A stretch of 64,000 bases of DNA from Sphaerobacter sp. (GTDB lineage Bacteria; Chloroflexota; Chloroflexia; Thermomicrobiales; Thermomicrobiaceae). The notes under the pieces were generated by a model. That model was not told the DNA's origin. It ran no database searches and saw nothing but the letters and a program-made list of their open reading frames with translations. The DNA lies in contig JASBVL010000008.1 in the NCBI GenBank assembly GCA_029961075.1, forward strand, positions 1-64,000, read 5' to 3'. The number at the start of each line of letters is the position of its first letter. Positions within the stretch are counted from its first letter, which is position 1. Position numbers and translations under genes: made by a program. Positions 5,636-9,263 of this stretch are shown piece after piece.

Positions 5636-5638
5636 CGG

Positions 5639-5654
5639 CGCGCACGCGTGCGCG
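5639..5654. terminator. GC palindrome after thiI
   Basis: A perfect 16-bp palindrome CGCGCACGCGTGCGCG begins 4 bp after the thiI stop. It would fold in RNA, but only a weak T-rich run follows, so its terminator role is uncertain. Confidence 0.35.
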
Positions 5655-5763
5655 TTGATATACGTTTCCTGCTTGCGGCCTGATTGTCAGAGATGTAGGC
5701 TGACGCGGCGTGCACCTGCGCAGCCGGAGCCGCGCCGATTCGGCTGACGGGAGGAGCAGCCTC

Positions 5764-6240
5764 ATGAAGCAGCCGCGCCTGTCCCTGAGTCGCTTCTACG
5801 AGGGCTGGGACGTCTACCAGCAGTTGCTGGCCGCCGCGGTTGCGCCGCTACGCCTCAGCAACTCGCGCTCCGCGCGGCGGACTCCCTGCGGCCGGTGAGC
5901 GAACTCGCCGCGCACATCATCAGCGCGCGGCTACGGGTCCCATCGGGTGCTGGGTGAGGGTGACCCCGCCCAGCACCCGATGATGGACTGGGACAAGCCA
6001 GATCAACCGCGGCGGAGCGCCCAGGAACTGGGGGCCGGGCTGTGGGCGAGTTGGCGGCCGATCGCCGAGTCCCTCGCGCGCTGGACCCCAGCCGATCTGG
6101 CCGAGTCCTTCACCACCCCGCGCGGCGAGACCTTTACCCGCCAGTGGGTCATCTGGCACGTGATTGAGCACGATCTGCATCACGGGGGTGAGTTGTACCG
6201 CACGCTCGGCACGCACGGCCTGCCCACCCCTGAGCTGCAG
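5764..6240 (+). pseudogene. DinB family protein, frameshifted
   Basis: Remnant of a DinB-like four-helix metal-binding protein (around 160 aa when intact). It starts at ATG 5764 behind GGGAGGAGCAGCCTC with LSRFYEGWDVYQQLLAAAVAPL. Continuity then shifts frame to QQLALRAADSLRPVSELAAH (around 5853-5915), and shifts again to HRVLGEGDPAQ through VIWHVIEHDLHHGGELYRTL (around 5940-6210). The segments are in the right order for one DinB protein and keep family residues, including the C-terminal H-x3-HDLHH metal site. At least two indels are therefore needed to explain it. Sequencing error is possible but two would be required. Confidence 0.75.
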
Positions 6241-6382
6241 CGTCGCTCCGGCCCCGGGCGAGCAGCACATCCGCCGGGGCCGGCGCCGCCTGCGCCGCCT
6301 CGCGTGCAGACCACGCATTCATCCCTTCCCATGCCGGGCGCCAGGGACAGGATCGCCGATGTCGCGCGCTGACACCACGCGC

Positions 6383-6412
6383 TTGACTGGCGAGGTGTGA
6401 GTCGGATAGACT
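6383..6412 (+). promoter_or_regulatory. Promoter for the Mn riboswitch transcript
   Basis: TTGACT (6383-6388), an 18-bp spacer and TAGACT (6407-6412). Transcription would start near 6419, exactly where the riboswitch P1 stem begins, which supports both calls. Confidence 0.65.
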
Positions 6413-6418
6413 TAGGGT

Positions 6419-6534
6419 TAGTGGGGAGTAGCCTGCTGCCGCCGGAGCTCCGGGGCAGCCCGGCCGATCGTCAATACCGGGTGGCGGCCACCCGCGGTCG
6501 GCCGCGACGCATCGAGCGCGAGGCGAGACCACTA
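6419..6534 (+). promoter_or_regulatory. yybP-ykoY (Mn2+) riboswitch
   Basis: Conserved elements of the yybP-ykoY manganese aptamer are present in order. P1 is TAGTGG (6419-6424) pairing with CCACTA (6529-6534). The L1 strand GGGGAGTAGC (6423-6432) faces GCGAGACC (6523-6530). A P2 hairpin GCTGCC/GGCAGC is at 6435-6459. P3 is CGGCCGA (6461-6467) with TCGGCCG (6498-6504); it encloses the hallmark CGTCAATAC (6469-6477) opposite CGG, capped by CGGGTGG/CCACCCG. The layout matches the B. subtilis yybP leader closely. In characterised cases Mn2+ docks L1 against L3 and turns on manganese-efflux genes. Here the first downstream genes are a 48-aa membrane protein and a zinc metallopeptidase. Confidence 0.9.
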
Positions 6535-6552
6535 CGACACGTCGTGCCGTAG
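6532..6552 (+). promoter_or_regulatory. Candidate switching hairpin of the riboswitch
   Basis: CTACG pairs with CGTAG, and inner CAC with GTG, across 6532-6552. Its 5' arm shares CTA (6532-6534) with the 3' strand of riboswitch P1, so this hairpin and a full P1 exclude each other. This is an inferred expression platform; there is no U-tract and the ribosome site lies 100 nt further on. Confidence 0.4.
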
Positions 6553-6655
6553 GGTCCCGCCATTTGGCATAGGCTCCAGAGGGCGGCAGGATCCACGGCA
6601 CCCCGGCTCAGCGGTGCACCGCGGCTCACCCGCCGGTCACCAAGGAGGCAGAGGA

Positions 6656-6802
6656 ATGATCTCCATTGTCCCGACGATGAACGTGGCAGCGTGGCTGCCG
6701 TACGCCATCGCCGGTGTCGCCTGGTGCGCCAGCGCCCTGCTGGTCGCGCTGGGGTTCCGCCGCCTGACGCCGCGGCCGGAGGCCGTGCCCGTCCGCGCGT
6801 GA
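6656..6802 (+). CDS. Small membrane protein under Mn riboswitch, 48 aa
   Basis: Unrecognised. First gene after the manganese riboswitch. ATG 6656 is preceded by AAGGAGGCAGAGGA, a near-perfect ribosome site that makes the start convincing. There is one hydrophobic segment, about residues 10-33 (AWLPYAIAGVAWCASALLVALGF), followed by RRLTPRPE, so a single-pass protein with a short basic cytoplasmic tail is expected. The 79-bp gap to the metallopeptidase gene, on the same strand with no terminator, suggests one transcript. By position it could act in Mn handling or modulate the peptidase; neither is shown by the sequence. Confidence 0.75.
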   Translation: MISIVPTMNVAAWLPYAIAGVAWCASALLVALGFRRLTPRPEAVPVRA

Positions 6803-6881
6803 GCGGTCCGGCGAACACGGACCCCGCGGGAGCGGCTCGCGTACGGCCACGCTTGCTGCAGGTGGAAGAGAGGCGGTAGGG

Positions 6882-7574
6882 ATGTTCTATTTTGATCCAC
6901 TCTACATCGTGCTCATGGCGCCCACCCTGGTGCTCATGCTGTGGGCGCAGAACCGGGTGCGCAGCACCTTCCAGAAGTTCGTGCAGGTCCCGAACCAGGC
7001 GCGACTGACCGGTGCGGAGGCGGCGCGGCGGATCCTCGACGCGAACGGGCTCTATGACGTGCCGGTCGAGCTCACCAACGGCGAACTGACCGACCACTAC
7101 GATCCGCGGACGCGGACGCTCCGGTTGTCGCAGCCCGTCTATGCGGGGCGCTCGGTTGCGGCGCTCGGCATCGCCGCCCACGAGGCGGGGCACGCGCTTC
7201 AGCACAAGGTCGGCTACGCCCCGCTGCAGCTCCGCTCGGCGCTGGTGCCCGTAGCGAGCATCGGCTCGAACCTGGGCTGGATCATGGTGCTCGCGGGCAT
7301 CGTCATCGGCCTGACGCAGCTTGCCTGGCTGGGCGTGGCGTTCTTCGCGGCCGGCACGGTGTTTGCCCTGGTGACGCTCCCGGTCGAGTTCAACGCCAGC
7401 AGCCGGGCGCTGGCCGCCCTGACGTCGCTCGGGCTGGTTGACCGGACCGAGTACGAGCAGAACAAGCAGGTCCTCAATGCCGCGGCCTGGACCTACATCG
7501 CCGGCTTTGCCGCGGCGTTCGTCCAGCTCATCTACTACATCCTGACGGTCGCCGGACTGTCGCAGCGCGACTAG
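6882..7574 (+). CDS. Neutral zinc metallopeptidase, YugP-like
   Basis: Membrane-bound metallopeptidase of the YugP / Zn_peptidase_2 family (230 aa, typical length). ATG 6882 follows GAGAGGCGGTAGGG. An N-terminal membrane segment (YIVLMAPTLVLMLWA) is followed by a cytoplasmic region and the catalytic helix AAHEAGHALQ (HEAGH, residues about 100-104). Two hydrophobic hairpins follow (LGWIMVLAGIVIGLTQLAWLGVAF and a last one near residues 205-225), with the family's PVEFNASSRAL between them, where the third zinc ligand Glu is expected. It is the second gene of the Mn-riboswitch transcript, an unusual placement for this family. Confidence 0.9.
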   Translation: MFYFDPLYIVLMAPTLVLMLWAQNRVRSTFQKFVQVPNQARLTGAEAARRILDANGLYDVPVELTNGELTDHYDPRTRTLRLSQPVYAGRSVAALGIAAHEAGHALQHKVGYAPLQLRSALVPVASIGSNLGWIMVLAGIVIGLTQLAWLGVAFFAAGTVFALVTLPVEFNASSRALAALTSLGLVDRTEYEQNKQVLNAAAWTYIAGFAAAFVQLIYYILTVAGLSQRD

Positions 7575-7603
7575 CCGGCGCCGGACCGACGGACGTGTGA
7601 ACC

Positions 7604-7633
7604 GCGAGGCCGCGACGCGCGTCGTGGCCTCGC
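7604..7633. terminator. Hairpin after the metallopeptidase gene
   Basis: GCGAGGCC (7604-7611) pairs with GGCCTCGC (7626-7633), and the interior CGACG/CGTCG also pairs, giving a nearly continuous 13-bp stem. There is no T-run. It sits 30 bp after the stop codon, between convergent genes. Confidence 0.5.
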
Positions 7634-7711
7634 GCGCTGGCTGGGGCGGCGACTGCGCGCCTGCGGCGGCGTCCCACGCCGCGCACCCGGCCGCCGCCCG
7701 CGAGCGGGGCC

Positions 7712-9139
7712 CTAGTGCGCCGGCCCGGCCGGGCGCGGGCGCTCGTCGGTGACCCGCCCGGACGTGACCGGCACGGCCGGGCCAGGCTCCTCCACCCGCA
7801 CCTCAACCTCATCGTGGATCCGGGCGCTCGTGATGACCTCGATCCCGGCCGCGGTCGCGATGCTGGCGGCGACCTGGTCGGGAGTCACGACCTCGAGCCG
7901 GATATCGTGGCGCAGCGCGTCGCTTGCGAGCTGCTGCGCGTCCGGCAGATCGTCCCAGGTGACGGCGTGCTCGGCGATCAGGAGCACGACGTGCTGCCGC
8001 GCATACGCCTTGAGCTGCGCGGCGAACGTGCGCAGCTCGCCCGGCTCGCGCAGGGCGACGACGCGCCGGGCGGGCGGGTGGCGCAGCTCCTCAACCACGG
8101 TCAGCACGATGATCTTCGTCGCAGCCAGGACGGGCACCGCAAGGATCAGTCCGAGCGCACCCCCGATCGACGCCCCGGCGAGGACCCCGAAGATCACCAT
8201 CAGCGGATGGATCCGGACAATGCGACCAACCAGTTGCGGGATGACGAACTGATCCTCCAGCAACCGCAGGACCAGGTAGGCAAGGCCGACGGCCGCGGCG
8301 AGCTGCAGCGGCGTCCAGCCGAAGGGCGTCGTGCCCTGCGAGAGGGCGACGGTCATGGCGATGCCGGCGGCGGTCCAGGGCCCGATGATCGGGATGAGCT
8401 CGAGCGCCCCGGTGGCGATGCCCAGGGCGAGGGCGTACTGCACCTGGAGGACCGAGAGGACGATGAAGGTGGCCACCGACATGATGCCGAACAGGATCAA
8501 CTGGGTCCGGATGTAGGCCCCGAAGGCGGCGTTGACCTGGCTGATGATCCGCTCGACGGTCTCGTGGTGACGCGGCGGGAGCAGGAGGGTGAGGCGACCG
8601 ACCGCGCGATCGCCCTGCAGGAGGAAGTAGTAGGTCGCCAGGAGATAGACCAGGAGGTGGATGACGAACCCCACCGTCTGCAGCACGAGCGAGGGCGCCT
8701 CGCGGCTGAAGCGGGAGGCGAACGCCTTGGTCAGCTCTTCAATCTGGGCGTTGATAGCCGCCGTATCGATGGTCACGTCGCCGATGGAGATGCGGGGGTT
8801 GCGCAGGAGCTCCTGACGCGCCGTCTCGATCAAGCTGGGCAGCGCCCGGATAAGGGAGAGGATCTGTTCGTAGAGGGTCGGGACGACCCGGACGCCGACG
8901 ACGACGAGGAGCCCGAAGATGAGGATGAAGAGCGACCCGATGGCGACGCCGCGGGGTACCCCGAGCCGGCGCTGCAGGCGTACCACGAGCGGATGGAGCA
9001 GGTAGGCGGTCACCGCCGCCCACACGAACGGCGGCAGGATGTGCGCCACGCGCAGCAGGAGGAGTCCCAGCGCGGCCAGTGCAAGCCCGATGAAGACCGG
9101 CAAGAGGCGCGTCTCGCGCAGGCGGTCGAGCGGATGCAT
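7712..9139 (-). CDS. AI-2E family transporter (PerM-like permease) with C-terminal extension
   Basis: Polytopic membrane protein of the AI-2E/PerM family, 475 aa. Members include the AI-2 exporter TqsA, but most have unknown substrates. Start ATG 9139 (MHPLDR) follows GGGGGAGGGC; a TTG four codons upstream overlaps that ribosome site. Residues 1-345 hold about eight membrane segments, a long periplasmic-like helical region (GDVTIDTAAINAQIEELTKA), and the family segment PIIGPWTAAGIAMTVAL. Beyond about residue 350 is a soluble tail of roughly 120 residues (ARQHVVLLIAEHAVTWDDL...) that I cannot assign. It is divergent from the 62-aa LexA-box gene. Confidence 0.9.
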   Translation of the reverse strand: MHPLDRLRETRLLPVFIGLALAALGLLLLRVAHILPPFVWAAVTAYLLHPLVVRLQRRLGVPRGVAIGSLFILIFGLLVVVGVRVVPTLYEQILSLIRALPSLIETARQELLRNPRISIGDVTIDTAAINAQIEELTKAFASRFSREAPSLVLQTVGFVIHLLVYLLATYYFLLQGDRAVGRLTLLLPPRHHETVERIISQVNAAFGAYIRTQLILFGIMSVATFIVLSVLQVQYALALGIATGALELIPIIGPWTAAGIAMTVALSQGTTPFGWTPLQLAAAVGLAYLVLRLLEDQFVIPQLVGRIVRIHPLMVIFGVLAGASIGGALGLILAVPVLAATKIIVLTVVEELRHPPARRVVALREPGELRTFAAQLKAYARQHVVLLIAEHAVTWDDLPDAQQLASDALRHDIRLEVVTPDQVAASIATAAGIEVITSARIHDEVEVRVEEPGPAVPVTSGRVTDERPRPAGPAH

Positions 9140-9263
9140 GCCCTCCCCCAACGACTGCGTTGGCGGCTATTCTACCAGGCCAGGTGCCCCGCACACGCCG
9201 CCACGCACCCAGACTCACCCGCTGGTCGCCCCTCCTGATGCGAACATGCGAGCGCATTGGCGC

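Follow-up and report, generated by a model that had tools for sequence, protein, structure and literature searches.

Positions 6,383 to 7,574 of the window, which is the whole stretch of 64,000 nucleotides analysed here from a Sphaerobacter sp. contig (JASBVL010000008.1), hold a promoter, a yybP-ykoY riboswitch aptamer, a terminator-like hairpin, a short membrane ORF and the gene yugP (Table 1). A first-pass annotation had read the region as a complete aptamer whose start is set by a TTGACT-N18-TAGACT promoter, and the promoter is indeed present, with 0.0 matches expected in shuffles, the transcription start that it predicts being the 5' base of P1.1. The same annotation had remarked that no exporter follows, which agrees with the layout, since the next gene after yugP is a convergent AI-2E-family transporter and no Mn exporter stands behind the riboswitch. 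The 48-aa single-pass ORF that it had placed 79 bp before yugP, with a good ribosome site, was recovered with the same 79-nt gap.

The riboswitch, the 48-aa ORF and yugP are part of an extra block that is missing as a whole from two genus mates, where the AI-2E gene comes straight after ThiI. The genus mates carry yugP elsewhere in the genome, and no riboswitch was detected in them by a clade-model scan of the genomes or at their yugP loci. The block also contains a DinB-like gene that is broken between frames, with its match confined to the C-terminal part, and this gene is not found at the corresponding place in the genus mates.

Table 1. Features of the riboswitch-yugP locus, in window coordinates
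Feature	Position	Strand	Basis
Extra block (broken DinB-like gene, riboswitch, 48-aa ORF, yugP)	5636-7711		comparison with two genus mates
DinB-like gene, broken	5710-6372		
Sigma-70-type promoter TTGACT-18-TAGACT	6383-6412	+	consensus scan
yybP-ykoY (Mn2+) riboswitch aptamer	6419-6534	+	clade model, RF00080 score, fold, family covariation
P1.1 5' strand UAGUGG	6419-6424		
L1 motif GGGGAGUAG	6423-6431		
Aptamer segment GGGGAGUAGCC	6423-6433		
L3 motif CGUCA	6469-6473		
Aptamer segment CGUCAAUAC	6469-6477		
Aptamer segment GGCGAGACCACUA	6522-6534		
Closing strand GCGAGACC	6523-6530		
Switch hairpin, terminator-like, takes up P1.1 3' strand	6522-6561	+	folding energy; same hairpin in relatives
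Shine-Dalgarno AAGGAGG of 48-aa ORF	6642-6648	+	sequence
48-aa single-pass membrane ORF, lineage-specific	6656-6802	+	GC3, ribosome site, no family, no homologue
yugP, membrane zinc metallopeptidase PF04298	6882-7574	+	Pfam, invariant columns, AlphaFold2
AI-2E-family transporter, convergent	7712-9151	-	

The aptamer and its switch hairpin

The motifs of the family are all present, and the parts of the aptamer follow one another in the order P1.1, L1 GGGGAGUAG, P2, P3, L3 with A6473, P4 and GGCGAGACC, P1.1 being formed by the pairing UAGUGG/CCACUA. In solved yybP-ykoY members an L3-type adenosine contacts Mn2+ (PMC6754395), and the Mn-sensing adenosine of the family is A6473 in the window, within L3. 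Unconstrained folding gave a four-way junction with P1.1, P2, P3 and P4. The search with RF00080 that had been suggested as a check had a divided outcome, in that the element was matched at 16.4 bits (E 0.015, 401 nt searched) but missed the Rfam gathering cut-off of 45 bits. A covariance model, R1, was built from 15 Chloroflexota elements found by RF00080 in the class, with the window left out, and its alignment has 30 pairs, 16 of them with compensatory changes. With R1 the element reached 56.7 bits (E 1.3e-13) against 11.7 bits for the runner-up in the window, and genome-wide it was the sole match in this genome (E 7e-12). It was detected as well by an independent covariance model, R2, whose elements come from a different family of the order (32.8 bits, E 1.6e-5). 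When 33 elements, including that of the window, were aligned by fitting them to the covariance model, 95.6% of pairs were kept, 20 of the 30 pairs were doubly changed and none of 500 shuffles was as good. Judged by its sequence, the element is a complete and genuine yybP-ykoY Mn2+ riboswitch aptamer, as originally proposed, the ligand being taken from the known family.

Failure to reach the Rfam threshold is a general property of these elements in the phylum. The RF00080 cut-off was passed in 2 of the 158 class genomes, against 87 with matches to R1 at E 0.1, and almost every Chloroflexota element that precedes TerC, a CaCA-type exchanger or an ATPase lies below it too. Since the elements of the phylum nearly all miss it, this cut-off is not diagnostic in Chloroflexota, and the Mn riboswitch regulon of the phylum has been under-read because most of its elements have been passed over at that threshold.

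The switch hairpin has a folding energy of -24.1 kcal/mol (z -5.0), and its 5' part is the 3' strand of P1.1. There is just ATTT behind it, with no T-run, and no terminator was scored by a terminator scan. A T-run follows the corresponding hairpin in relatives, and in close relatives controlling TerC the hairpin is likewise without one, which makes the missing T-run a shared trait of the group, as opposed to simple decay. Given its absence, termination in the window may be weak or Rho-dependent, or the switch may work in another way. In four leaders of relatives (L112, L117, L119 and L120) the 3' strand of the hairpin, GGCTCGCC, has a second possible partner, a further GGCGAGCC immediately upstream of the ribosome site, and this alternative pairing is possibly that of a three-state switch.

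YugP and its recurrent linkage to the riboswitch

The identification of the peptidase as YugP-type holds at 5.2e-87 to PF04298 (291.4 bits, cut-off 27) over residues 8-222, which is the full length. The HExxH motif lies at residues 100-104, and H100, E101 and H104 are invariant among 37 sequences, as is E169, a candidate third ligand. The AlphaFold2 model has a mean pLDDT of 93.6; a structure search in the PDB found no global relative but a local resemblance, weak at E 0.29, to the minigluzincin selecase, and a sequence search in the PDB found no match. The product is predicted to be a membrane zinc metallopeptidase and would act as such an enzyme. In Bacillus subtilis YugP has a mild effect on spore germination jointly with htrC, with no Mn link (PMC13393411), and the literature search found no experimental record of YugP besides this one.

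An Mn riboswitch stands before yugP in 13 further Chloroflexota genomes, which belong to three other families and at least two classes, the class of families f77 and f124 being taken as different from that of the window on the kinship label 'same phylum' and a class search around G341. In 12 of these genomes yugP is first or lies behind one small ORF, and in 1 it lies behind TerC. In family f3, which is of the same order as the window, the riboswitch is directly before yugP in G022, G031 and G037, and in G035 a small Asp-rich ORF comes between them. It is directly before yugP in five f77 genomes (G341, G400, G605, G638 and G653) and at 53-90 nt in three f124 genomes (G602, G635 and G708), a fourth member of f124 (G733) having the operon riboswitch-TerC-yugP. 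The layout in f124 and f77 is a textbook one of aptamer, terminator with T-run, ribosome site and yugP. A cation P-type ATPase comes immediately after yugP in G605, G638 and G653, giving an operon riboswitch-yugP-ATPase, and elsewhere in the class ATPases of this type are themselves controlled directly by riboswitches. Within the order 5 linkages were seen against about 0.013 expected by chance, a rough figure that assumes random and independent placement and is set against counts resting partly on MAGs.

Mapped onto the YugP tree, the presence of a riboswitch takes 6 changes to explain; well-supported branches force at least 5 of them, and the linkage therefore arose repeatedly. In the order as a whole yugP mostly lacks a preceding riboswitch, as it does in the two genus mates, so that riboswitch control of yugP is optional. 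The expectation that relatives would share the gene order is right in one respect and wrong in another, for the order riboswitch-48 aa-yugP is absent from them but the order riboswitch-yugP is present. Of the options left open by the first-pass annotation, it is the control of membrane proteolysis by Mn that gains strong comparative support, from linkage in 13 other genomes and several independent lineages.

At yugP loci of other phyla in the collection scan the Chloroflexota model R1 had 0 matches in 80, and Rfam, applied to 20 of them, gave no match at cut-off; such pairs may nonetheless occur there, because Rfam also misses confirmed Chloroflexota pairs. A candidate motif, GGGGAGTAG, near yugP in L019 was rejected as the end of a coding frame. 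No literature linking yybP-ykoY riboswitches with YugP or PF04298 was found among open-access papers, a scope that leaves priority uncertain, and transporters were named as the main riboswitch targets in a survey of regulons whose genomes included five from Chloroflexi (PMC3766115). The riboswitch class is thus a known one, and yugP is a new, recurrent target and a new member of its regulon.

An important consideration is whether the unit in the window is instead a leftover of an ancestral riboswitch-TerC unit from which TerC has been lost, with yugP behind the riboswitch by chance and the 48-aa ORF a small orphan. The family offers some grounds for this, as each of 11 family mates has a single element with a long TerC behind it in every case, the window's own genome has no long TerC and no MntP in an assembly that is 91% complete, and the riboswitch-TerC unit of the family mate G006 adjoins the orthologue of this AI-2E gene, arranged as in the window. 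The hairpin without a T-run could also be read as a sign of decay. Such an origin is nevertheless unlikely, given that the core, all helices and the promoter are intact, that the missing T-run is common to relatives that keep TerC, and that the riboswitch-yugP pair recurs across several lineages independently, the terminator and ribosome site there being placed to serve yugP.

The 48-aa ORF and the origin of the block

The 48-aa ORF has one hydrophobic stretch (residues 16-34, mean Kyte-Doolittle 1.93) and a GC3 of 45/49, and a ribosome site with an ORF of at least 40 codons would arise by chance in 0.5% of resampled leaders. Because of its strong ribosome site, its GC3 and this low chance figure the protein is probably translated. 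No Pfam or NCBIfam family was assigned to it, only chance-level matches were found among 60 relatives and all fetched loci, and it is not present at the other riboswitch-yugP loci. Aligned with TerC as a possible remnant of it, the ORF gave weak matches within that protein and nothing convincing. The protein is probably an accessory of the window's own lineage, in which it could serve as an adaptor of YugP.

It had been suggested that this protein is a new Mn-handling or Mn-sensing factor, or a regulator of the peptidase, which would make it the main target of the riboswitch and yugP a mere follower. Its place as the first of the ORFs, its ribosome site, which is the best, the GC3 and start context that argue for translation, and the frequent presence after the riboswitch in relatives of another small protein rich in Asp, His and Arg all lend something to this idea; conservation does not, since no homologue was found in the relatives or near other riboswitch-yugP pairs, and the protein has no metal-ligand pattern, with no His and one Cys. 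The 48-aa protein is very unlikely to be the main target. Acquisition of the whole block by horizontal transfer from a lineage like f2, with no special Mn role here, is the least probable of the readings weighed, for although the direct succession of ThiI and AI-2E gene in the genus mates and the grouping of the window YugP with the f2 genomes G032 and G025 (support 99/86), and not with the genus mates, would fit it, function is compatible with transfer, and the f2 yugP genes have no riboswitch within 1.5 kb upstream, so that the pair was not imported ready-made from the f2 genomes examined.

A variety of other genes were noticed behind Mn riboswitches. Family f3 has a small protein of 77-105 aa, rich in Asp, Arg and His, after the riboswitch and before TerC or, in G035, yugP (in riboswitch-strand coordinates, L193 1682, L197 1676, L198 1677, L181 6598 and L177 1483); these proteins start with LDDLLD or similar, mostly end with FDFD or similar, belong to no Pfam family and are candidates for an Mn-binding or buffering protein. 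By sequence only, an NhaA-like antiporter follows the riboswitch in L123 (G025) and a DedA-like membrane protein in L141 (G148). In G091 (L185 3105-4424, minus strand) an M50 site-2 protease with CBS domains lies behind an Mn riboswitch (98.6 bits), which is again a membrane metalloprotease in that position but, unlike YugP, one of an unrelated family and a single case.

Manganese and membrane proteolysis

The aptamer, promoter, hairpin, gene order and recurrence, all read directly from the DNA, are probably best explained by an Mn2+ riboswitch that controls a short, presumably co-transcribed operon of the 48-aa protein and YugP, acts as an ON switch and places YugP in an Mn-overload programme. 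The yybP-ykoY family includes Mn-dependent ON switches whose P1.1 is stabilised by Mn2+ (PMC6754395). High cytoplasmic Mn2+ would accordingly be expected to lead to the binding of Mn2+ between L1 and L3 and the stabilisation of P1.1, and the stabilised P1.1 would block the competing hairpin and allow the operon to be expressed. That Mn excess turns yugP on, and not off, is proposed because of the analogy with these known ON switches.

YugP would then be a member of the Chloroflexota Mn-overload programme, beside TerC and cation P-type ATPases, and the recurrent pairing of switch and protease, sometimes with a likely metal pump, suggests a place for YugP in the bacterial manganese response. Its task would most likely be to clear membrane proteins, or exported ones, that carry the wrong metal or have stalled at the translocon under excess Mn, much like the task of FtsH in Bacillus cells without TerC. 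FtsH and HtpX co-purify with the TerC proteins of B. subtilis, and cells that lack the latter cannot do without FtsH (PMC10550928). By this analogy the role of YugP is probably membrane-protein or secretory quality control under Mn stress. There is about an even chance that YugP is a dedicated Mn-stress membrane protease, and that Chloroflexota meet an overload of Mn with regulated proteolysis in the membrane in addition to export; if so, the protease family would gain a physiological role. The targets known for manganese riboswitches are exporters and TerC proteins, and a recurrent link with a membrane peptidase would add regulated proteolysis to Mn homeostasis. YugP is widespread in bacteria and hardly studied, and the linkage would give it a testable role.

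With the RF00080 class the window element shares the L1 and L3 motifs, the Mn-sensing adenosine, the four-way junction and, as predicted by folding, a terminator-like hairpin that overlaps P1.1 and may compete with it; it differs in lying below the Rfam cut-off, as do nearly all Chloroflexota elements, and in having as its target a membrane peptidase gene and not that of an exporter or TerC protein. The window YugP has the full-length match, HExxH motif and long membrane helices of the PF04298 Zn_peptidase_2 family, of which the B. subtilis member has been studied as one of several spore-membrane proteases (PMC13393411), with no Mn control in the papers found. A further parallel is that of the TerC proteins MeeF and MeeY of B. 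subtilis with FtsH, where likewise an Mn-linked membrane factor and a membrane quality-control protease act together (PMC10550928). There, however, FtsH is linked by genetics and co-purification, whereas in the window a protease of another family lies behind the riboswitch itself.
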